Assembly (NCBI GenBank): GCA_018816555.1
Contig: JAHIVT010000032.1
Location: forward strand, 18,155 to 82,154
Direction: 5' to 3'
DNA: 64,000 nucleotides
Source of the DNA: Pseudomonadota bacterium
GTDB taxonomy: Bacteria > Desulfobacterota > Desulfobulbia > Desulfobulbales > SURF-16
Each line of letters starts with the position of its first letter. The first letter of the stretch is position 1. Made by a program: the position numbers and the translations under genes. The notes beneath the pieces were generated by a model. That model had not been told where the DNA came from. It saw only the letters and a program-made list of their open reading frames with translations, and ran no database searches. Positions 20,848 through 27,454 of this stretch are shown here, piece by piece.

Positions 20848-21309
20848 TCAACGGGCGGTGCGCACCGGCAGGGCACGCATGCTGCTCGAAGTCCCTTGAT
20901 CAAATGTATTGATCTCACCGGTCATGAAAAAGATGGTCCGCGCCCGGTTGCGCCGGCTGTCCGAGGTCCAGGGACAGCAGCCGGTGAGAGTGATGGCCTT
21001 GAAGGTTTTAAAGCGACTTGCAGAGTTTTGATCAAAAATGGTATCCAGTTCGGCCAAGGTCGGCAGCCGCCAGTCAGTATGGTTGCCGCCCGTAAATTTT
21101 TCACAGTAGAACTTCGCCTGCTCCCAGGTGATATCCTCACCATTATCCGTTGCCGCCCACATGAGACCGGTACTGTGGTCAAGTATGGTATCGCCGCCGA
21201 CAGCCGTAAATCGGCCCTCCTGCATCTGGGACCAGGCCTCCCATCTCAATGAAAATATCGCAAATAGACATGTTGCCATGACAATCAACAGACGACATGA
21301 TTTTCCCAT
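20848..21309 (-). CDS. DUF1566 (Lcl C-terminal-like) secreted protein
   Basis: 153 residues with an N-terminal signal peptide (hydrophobic about 6-24). The DUF1566 fold is recognised by TILDHSTGLMWA, ITWEQAKFYCEKF, HTDWRLPTLAEL and the closing RALPVRTAR. The domain is related to Legionella collagen-like protein C-termini and occurs in exported or surface proteins; its ligand is unknown. A paralogue with a longer N-terminus lies at 26089-26838 on the same strand. The gene runs towards the cytochrome remnant. Confidence 0.85.
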   Translation of the reverse strand: MGKSCRLLIVMATCLFAIFSLRWEAWSQMQEGRFTAVGGDTILDHSTGLMWAATDNGEDITWEQAKFYCEKFTGGNHTDWRLPTLAELDTIFDQNSASRFKTFKAITLTGCCPWTSDSRRNRARTIFFMTGEINTFDQGTSSSMRALPVRTAR

Positions 21310-26088: not shown

Positions 26089-26838
26089 TCATTTGCCACT
26101 GCGCACCGGCAATACCCGGTCATTGAGGGAGCCAGACTGACTGCCCCAGAAGGGGTAGCCATCGCTGAACGAGAAATGGGTAGCCTCGGAACCGCGAGTC
26201 TCTATAGCCCAAGGACAGCATTTTGAGAGCTTGACAAACGGTGTTATATGGTTAGGACCTGGTTCCTCCTTGTCATACAGCCCGGCCAGTTCAGCCTGGG
26301 TTGGCATGCGCCAATCCGTATATCCACCGCCAGAGTAATCCACGCAATAAACCCTGGCGTCTGCCCAAGTAATGTCACGGCCATTGTCCTTTGCCGCCCA
26401 CATCAGGCTGGTCTGGACATCGGTCACCGTACCGTCTCCGTTATCCTTGAACCGTGCCAGGCGTCTCTCGTCCGCCTCCACTTGGCTGTGCAATTTAAGG
26501 GCGCGATAATAGGATCTCCCTTCCTTGCCGGCCTTGTCCAGATAGGTCTCCAGGTTCTTTTTGGCCTCGGTTGCATGCCTGGTGGCAGCATGGTACCGGC
26601 CGTTCTGGAAATAATACTCCACCGGCAACGTGACCTTAAGTGCCCTGATCTTCTCCAAGTCCTGGGCCGCAGCCTCATAGTCATTACTGTCCAGCTTGAG
26701 CGTTGCCGACAGCAGCAGTCTGTCCGCCTCCATCTCAGGCGGCAACGCCATGGCCGGCATGATAAAGCCGATAAGAACAAAAAAACCAACCGCCACGATA
26801 ATTTTTTGCGACAATGTACTCTCCGGACAAACCCTCAT
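26089..26838 (-). CDS. DUF1566 secreted protein with helical repeat N-terminus
   Basis: 249 residues. A signal peptide (hydrophobic about 12-30, AMA cleavage) is followed by a TPR-like helical section (about 35-115, DYEAAAQDLEKIRAL and HAATRHATEAKKNLETYL). A C-terminal DUF1566 domain has TVTDVQTSLMWA, ITWADARVYCVDY, YTDWRMPTQAEL and DRVLPVRSGK. It is a paralogue of the 20848-21309 protein. A GEMM-I riboswitch with terminator lies about 365 nt upstream on the same strand, with no other gene between, so expression is probably controlled by a cyclic dinucleotide. AAAGGAGGGA precedes the ATG. Confidence 0.85.
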   Translation of the reverse strand: MRVCPESTLSQKIIVAVGFFVLIGFIMPAMALPPEMEADRLLLSATLKLDSNDYEAAAQDLEKIRALKVTLPVEYYFQNGRYHAATRHATEAKKNLETYLDKAGKEGRSYYRALKLHSQVEADERRLARFKDNGDGTVTDVQTSLMWAAKDNGRDITWADARVYCVDYSGGGYTDWRMPTQAELAGLYDKEEPGPNHITPFVKLSKCCPWAIETRGSEATHFSFSDGYPFWGSQSGSLNDRVLPVRSGK

Positions 26839-27203
26839 TGCTCCCTCCTTTTATAAATCTGAATAGGATTAATGTGTTCCATGGGGCCTTTGGTCACAAG
26901 GTAAACATTCTTCAAATTGCTTTAAAAAAATGTTCTTATCAATTCGTTCATCTCACCGCCCCGGGTTATTCATTGCGGATTCACCCTGGCATGCAGAAGG
27001 GTTTTACCCTCATCACATGAAATTTCTAAAAAATTATTCAATCCGTTGATTTCTGGGAGGGGCTGTCAGCAAATCCGTCCCTGCCTGCGAGATCCAAGTT
27101 CATGTTCGATAACAAATACTGCCTCTGTGGTAGTAAGTGGTAGTAATATGTTATTTCTATTTTGCAAATTTCCAATAACCATTAATCAGATTATAGCATT
27201 TAC
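26839..27203. other. untranslated leader between riboswitch terminator and DUF1566 gene
   Basis: About 365 nt on the reverse strand with no credible ORF. A ribosome site (AAAGGAGGGA) is visible only at the gene start. An additional promoter inside this leader cannot be excluded. Confidence 0.45.
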
Positions 27204-27241
27204 AAAAAAACCGAGCTACCCTCATAAATCAGGTAACCCGG
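27204..27241 (-). terminator. riboswitch-associated intrinsic terminator
   Basis: On the reverse strand CCGGGTTACC pairs with GGTAGCTCGG (two G-U pairs) and is followed by T7. The 5' arm is the 3' end of the GEMM aptamer, including its GGTTACC receptor, so aptamer folding and terminator folding exclude each other. Confidence 0.8.
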
Positions 27242-27300
27242 CTCGCTTAAAAGCTCCGTGGCTTTCCGTCCCCATCTTGCGGTGGGTTTGGCTTTATCTC
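27222..27300 (-). promoter_or_regulatory. GEMM-I cyclic-dinucleotide riboswitch aptamer (c-di-GMP-I or cGAMP type)
   Basis: The reverse strand shows the conserved GEMM-I elements in order: GCCAAACCC, a P2 stem closed by a GCAA tetraloop (CCCACC-GCAA-GATGGG), GGACGGAAAGCC, a P3 stem (CGG-AGCTTTTAAGCGAG-CCG) and the tetraloop receptor GGGTTACC. If GC of GCCAAACC pairs with GC of AAAGCC as in Vc2, the base equivalent to G20 is A, as in the GEMM-Ib/cGAMP class known from Geobacter; that assignment is tentative. The overlapping terminator predicts an ON switch upon ligand binding. The downstream gene is the DUF1566 protein. Confidence 0.82.
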
Positions 27301-27454
27301 TATGTTATCCTAACAAATTTCTATGACAATATCAAATATTTGTAAATATGGCAAATTGTCGCGCCTCTGGTGGATGGGATTTCCAGTTGTTGCCAATCAA
27401 TAAGACCGGGAGACAGATTTAATTTTTCTTCCAGACTGAGAGGACTGTGGTTTT

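Follow-up and report, generated by a model that had tools for sequence, protein, structure and literature searches.

Riboswitches of the GEMM-I class are anchored by a small set of bases, namely G20, the C22-G45 pair, the A47-A48-A49 run and C92 followed by C93 (PMC3764141). Geobacter metallireducens has a pilM ON switch of the same architecture as the locus described here; it loses binding when C75, its equivalent of C92, is sequestered, and selectivity between c-di-GMP and cGAMP is reported to change with mutations low in P2 (PMC9262584). Hypr cGAMP synthases are recognised by the rule of a Ser at one position of the GGDEF domain (PMC6456294), and the C-terminal domain of Legionella Lcl (Lcl-CTD) is an adhesin domain with a C-type-lectin-like fold (PMC11162425). 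Here we describe a locus on the minus strand of the window, by which we mean the whole 64-kb stretch of DNA that was analysed. It is likely a class-I c-di-GMP riboswitch (GEMM-I) that acts as a transcriptional ON switch for the gene of a secreted TPR and Lcl_C protein; we infer which ligand it binds, in which direction it switches and what the protein does. This reading would tie a secreted lectin-like, adhesin-like Lcl_C family to cyclic-dinucleotide control, with the ligand call of a preliminary description corrected. The features of the locus are the following, with the basis of each in brackets.

27350..27363, minus strand: upstream box CGCGACAATTTGCC, with its start 61 nt ahead of the covariance model match (recurrence and conservation)
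27307..27335, minus strand: sigma-70-like promoter, TTGATA-N17-TAGGAT (consensus scan, 9/12 matches)
27228..27301, minus strand: GEMM-I (c-di-GMP-I class) aptamer (RF03167, RF01051, covariation)
27208..27244, minus strand: intrinsic terminator hairpin, GAGCCGGGUUACCU / 9-nt loop / GGGUAGCUCGGUUU, its 5' arm being the aptamer 3' strand including C92 (fold)
27204..27210, minus strand: U-run of the terminator, 7 T (sequence)
26839..27203, minus strand: long leader from terminator to gene (kept in both orthologues)
26959..26994, minus strand: leader element GCATGCCAGGGTGAATCCGCAATGAATAACCCGGGG, 36 nt, nearly invariant in three species (alignment)
26844..26849, minus strand: Shine-Dalgarno AGGAGG (sequence; conserved in orthologues)
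26089..26838, minus strand: controlled gene for a predicted exported protein of 249 aa (Pfam, AlphaFold, Foldseek)

Aptamer, pocket bases and ligand

The aptamer was matched by the covariance model RF03167 with 65.6 bits against a gathering score of 59 (E 2.9e-13 for the whole window; minus strand, 27301-27228) and by that of the parent class, RF01051, with 61.1 bits against a gathering score of 35; besides the GEMM-I models, no Rfam family scored above threshold in the 64-kb window. The preliminary description had placed a GEMM-I riboswitch with all core elements on the reverse strand and had named a cmsearch with RF01051 as the check. These scores bear it out, and the GCAA stem, GGACGGAAAGCC and GGGTTACC lie where it had located them, with the tetraloop at 27280-27277 of the minus strand. 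Scores above the gathering threshold, the pocket bases and the tetraloop-receptor architecture are thus all present for membership in RF01051. In the fold of 103 distinct aptamers, 93.9% of cells were paired and 18 of 21 pairs had changes on both sides, with slid controls far below the real alignment; these pairing counts lean towards the aptamer fold, to which the rows had themselves been aligned. Folded as a single strand, the 105-nt element as a whole gave a z of -1.83, which is not significant alone; the case for the aptamer is made from covariance model score and covariation and that for the terminator from its own fold.

For Vc2 numbering, the C22-G45 pair, the run A47-A49 and C92/C93 served as fixed points (PMC3764141), together with the covariance model alignment, which gives G20 at 27292, C21 at 27291 paired with G46, the C22-G45 pair, A47 at 27265 and C92 at 27233. 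A covariance model made from 13 aptamers of the genus yielded 105 aptamers in the source genome and in regions of relatives; A47 is universal among them, and position 20 is G in 93 and A in 12. The preliminary description had read the equivalent of G20 as A, a hint at the cGAMP-preferring GEMM-Ib type. This reading was rejected, since the alignment puts G at position 20 where GEMM-Ib has A, and the main argument for cGAMP falls with it. G20, A47 and C92 together form the c-di-GMP pattern, and the ligand of the aptamer is probably c-di-GMP.

Two points count against c-di-GMP. The 21-46 pair is C-G, as opposed to G-C in Vc2, and mutations low in P2 touch selectivity (PMC9262584); moreover RF03167, the best-scoring Rfam model, has G where the RNA has A47. 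Its consensus carries G21-C46 and a G aligned with A47, whereas the window RNA has C21-G46 and A47, and because these pocket letters are unmatched the aptamer was left out of the c-di-GMP-I-GGC variant (RF03167). A preference for cGAMP (c-AMP-GMP), as in GEMM-Ib, would agree with a delta-proteobacterial GEMM-I group that has Geobacter-like ON-switch terminators (PMC6456294, PMC9262584), and with the tuning of selectivity by bases low in P2 as well (PMC9262584), but it is made distinctly improbable by G20 in the aptamer and in the 93 of 105 relatives, and by the signalling enzymes of the genome. The latter, a draft that is 97% complete, has 32 GGDEF matches, 29 of which were read at the Hypr position; the residue is Asp in 27, Asn in 1 and Lys in 1 (a degenerate domain), so that no Hypr Ser/Thr is found among those read. 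A search with PF18144 found no SMODS CD-NTase in the draft either, leaving neither kind of cGAMP-making enzyme in what was covered.

The sole aptamer of the source genome with A20 (L011:411-505, contig C163) has the canonical G21-C46 and lies upstream of an fn3-like 'FSWTPNTDASLAGYKIYYG' protein, and in relatives this protein family likewise has aptamers with A20 and G21-C46 upstream of it (L174, L170, L228). The L011 aptamer is a candidate for sensing cGAMP, and no Hypr enzyme was seen among the GGDEF domains read in its genome.

Orientation of the 21-46 pair divides the related aptamers. Overlapping terminators follow 50/68 of those with C21-G46 versus 0/32 of those with G21-C46, and the median distance from aptamer to called start is 208 nt versus 51.5 nt, where individual distances are rough as gene starts were called automatically. 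The G21-C46 aptamers sit near the start codons of fn3-like and cytochrome genes, and this closeness suggests translational control. Since the aptamers are related to each other, the split may represent one or a few evolutionary events. The combination of G20 with an inverted C21-G46 pair could constitute a lineage-specific and functionally distinct GEMM-I variant, of altered affinity or cyclic-dinucleotide preference and tied to transcriptional ON platforms, while the G21-C46 subtype of the same genomes serves short, probably translational leaders; we regard this as unlikely. If the C21-G46 subtype were distinct, the two subtypes would answer different signal ranges or ligands.

Terminator, switching and promoter

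The terminator hairpin has 14 pairs at -20.3 kcal/mol (z -4.39, 0/200 shuffles as good), and its pairing takes up the ligand-binding base, C92; the terminator scan overlooked the hairpin owing to its 9-nt loop. The 5' arm had been described as the receptor strand, and the hairpin at 27244-27208 does use the aptamer 3' strand. Overlapping terminators were found for 51/100 related aptamers versus 12/1000 shuffled downstream sequences. Of the 50 related hairpins that pair C92, 49 do so through a C-G pair. As the terminator reuses the aptamer 3' strand and sequesters C92, which is the overlap that characterises pilM-type ON switches, ligand should prevent termination; the ligand-induced antitermination proposed earlier is in this way supported as predicted logic. 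In an unliganded calculation the terminator state, with P2 kept, reached -28.1 kcal/mol versus -10.6 kcal/mol for the bare aptamer secondary structure. That the terminator is so strongly favoured counts against the ON-switch account; it implies a default OFF state, in which ligand must act during transcription (kinetic switching).

By the proposed mechanism, RNA polymerase would start adjoining the aptamer. As long as no ligand was bound, the 3' strand of the aptamer (GAGCCGGGUUACCU, with C92 in it) would pair with GGGUAGCUCGG to form the terminator, and transcription would end at 27204. If c-di-GMP bound G20, A47 and C92 before the 3' arm was made, the 3' strand would be held in P3/P1, the terminator could not form, and polymerase would read through the long leader into the TPR and Lcl_C gene.

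The promoter elements would place the transcription start near the first aptamer base, judging from the position of the sigma-70-like hexamers. The consensus scan alone is at chance level (3 found versus 2.0 expected), and TAGGAT occurs at the same spacing in orthologous and paralogous promoters. The upstream box is kept at the same spacing in both orthologous loci, and a distance of 61-62 nt from its first base to the aptamer is found in many riboswitch promoters. Allowing <=1 mismatch, the box TGCGACAATTTGCC has 33 sites in the source genome versus 0 for the reversed control, and it recurs across the genus; it is likely the binding site of a putative regulator common to many riboswitch promoters of the genus. 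Further copies of the box stand in front of cytochromes, a PilZ-like gene and a PEP-CTERM-like gene. At L285:1941-2016 (minus strand), one copy and a TAGGAT-like -10 are followed by what looks like a decayed GEMM-I aptamer (16.5 bits, E 0.013).

The element lies ~150 nt past the stop codon of an upstream gene on the same strand, as would be expected if it mainly terminated the upstream operon (27455 and beyond) and its aptamer had decayed. This is hardly credible, however, with pocket bases and pairs all intact, with a conserved promoter of its own, and with an element that travels with the downstream and not the upstream gene.

Leader, linkage and the gene product

The preferred ON switch has to act across a long leader. 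The gap from terminator to gene had been given as 365 nt, which is correct (~365 nt to the ATG at 26838), and had been called long; it is ordinary for the subtype, with its median of 208 nt. Orthologous loci were found at L044 (82% protein identity) and L045 (77%), where the aptamer precedes the gene by 320 and 527 nt, respectively; the longer leader (527 nt from aptamer to ATG) carries a ~200-nt insertion. Promoter box, TAGGAT, aptamer, terminator, leader parts and Shine-Dalgarno align across the three species, and none of the neighbouring genes compared from the window was found at L044 or L045. A full-length orthologue is present in 3/6 genomes of the genus, with the aptamer in 3/3. Control of the DUF1566 gene by the aptamer, as first suggested, thus gains from the fact that the two are kept together in two related species despite the long leader.

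The leader element GCATGCCAGGGTGAATCCGCAATGAATAACCCGGGG has one exact site in the window, where none is expected, and among 232 loci it is confined to the present locus and its two orthologues; it matches no known family. A conserved leader peptide at GCATGCCAGGGTGAATCCGCAATGAATAACCCGGGG was rejected, because the 23-aa frame of the window is broken by a stop in one orthologue, and no compensatory changes were seen in the fold of the element among the three sequences. A further ~200 nt of conserved leader is not accounted for by the switch, and this counts against the ON-switch account. If the Lcl_C gene had a promoter within the leader, the aptamer would still answer c-di-GMP and the switch would control a short leader RNA only. 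The length of the leader (365 nt) and its partial conservation speak for such a promoter; it is left with a slim chance, because box, promoter, aptamer, terminator, leader and gene are conserved together in three species whose flanking genes differ and because other loci of the subtype have the same layout (median gap 208 nt).

With the Lcl_C gene again taken as the target of the switch, its 249-aa product has an N-terminal hydrophobic export signal by inspection, TPR-like helices at ~34-129 in the AlphaFold model (pLDDT mostly above 89) and an Lcl_C domain (PF07603, formerly DUF1566) at 136-246, with 56.7 bits against a Pfam cut-off of 34.9. The secreted helical-repeat/DUF1566 protein of the preliminary description agrees with these features. 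The Lcl_C domain is the lower-confidence part of the model, and in a Foldseek search this modest-confidence model matched the C-terminal domain of Legionella Lcl best (8q4e, E 0.011), the next hits being TPR domains and a C-type-lectin-like venom protein; Pfam score and C-type-lectin-like fold agree on the family to the extent that such a model allows. The product is predicted to be exported and is possibly adhesive.

Among 80 related Lcl_C loci fetched, only the two orthologues have the aptamer, and none of the other Lcl_C loci examined in the source genome has a GEMM aptamer. A second Lcl_C gene in the window (20848-21309, minus strand, 60.3 bits) has no GEMM aptamer by Rfam. No paper in the literature searched, outside which the key 2015-2017 riboswitch papers fall, joins DUF1566 and a riboswitch, and within that same scope Lcl_C appears unreported as a riboswitch target.

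Regulon and comparison with known systems

The source genome has 15 GEMM-I aptamers, and one relative has up to 24. Genes downstream of them in the source genome encode multiheme cytochromes, PEP-CTERM-like surface proteins, an fn3-like protein and a GGDEF protein, and 94 first genes in relatives gave Pfam matches to paired CXXCH, fn3, cadherin-like, H-type lectin and GGDEF domains and NCBIfam matches to VPLPA-CTERM. Surface, cytochrome and signalling genes would make up a regulon of 15 members, the Lcl_C switch among them. This deltaproteobacterial genus runs a large GEMM-I regulon over multiheme cytochromes, PEP-CTERM-like and fn3-domain proteins, similar in size to that of Geobacter, but with a c-di-GMP-type pocket in most members. 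Another GEMM-I riboswitch of the source genome has a group II intron directly after its terminator (L031:1483-1600, contig C147; RF01999, 126 bits). Some relatives have tandem GEMM-I aptamers: G014 has a run of three (L202), and G003 has a neighbouring pair (L179).

According to a title cited in PMC11218506, a collagen adhesion protein of Bacillus thuringiensis is under riboswitch control; a c-di-GMP riboswitch and an adhesin are common to that case and ours, and organism and protein family differ. With Vibrio cholerae Vc2 (RF01051) the window RNA has in common the fold, the tetraloop and receptor, G20, A47-A49 and C92, but the 21-46 pair is G-C there and C-G here, and control is translational in Vc2, as against an apparently transcriptional ON switch with an Lcl_C target. 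RF03167 (c-di-GMP-I-GGC) scores best for the window RNA, yet G21-C46 and a G at 47 belong to the model only. The Geobacter pilM (Gmet_0970) GEMM-Ib switch for cGAMP is likewise an ON switch whose terminator, drawn from the aptamer 3' strand, sequesters the ligand-pairing C (PMC9262584, PMC6456294); it has A20 where the window RNA has G20, and the organism studied here has no Hypr GGDEF among those read. The riboswitch belongs to a known class with a well-precedented mechanism, within which we infer its ligand, its switching direction and the role of the protein.
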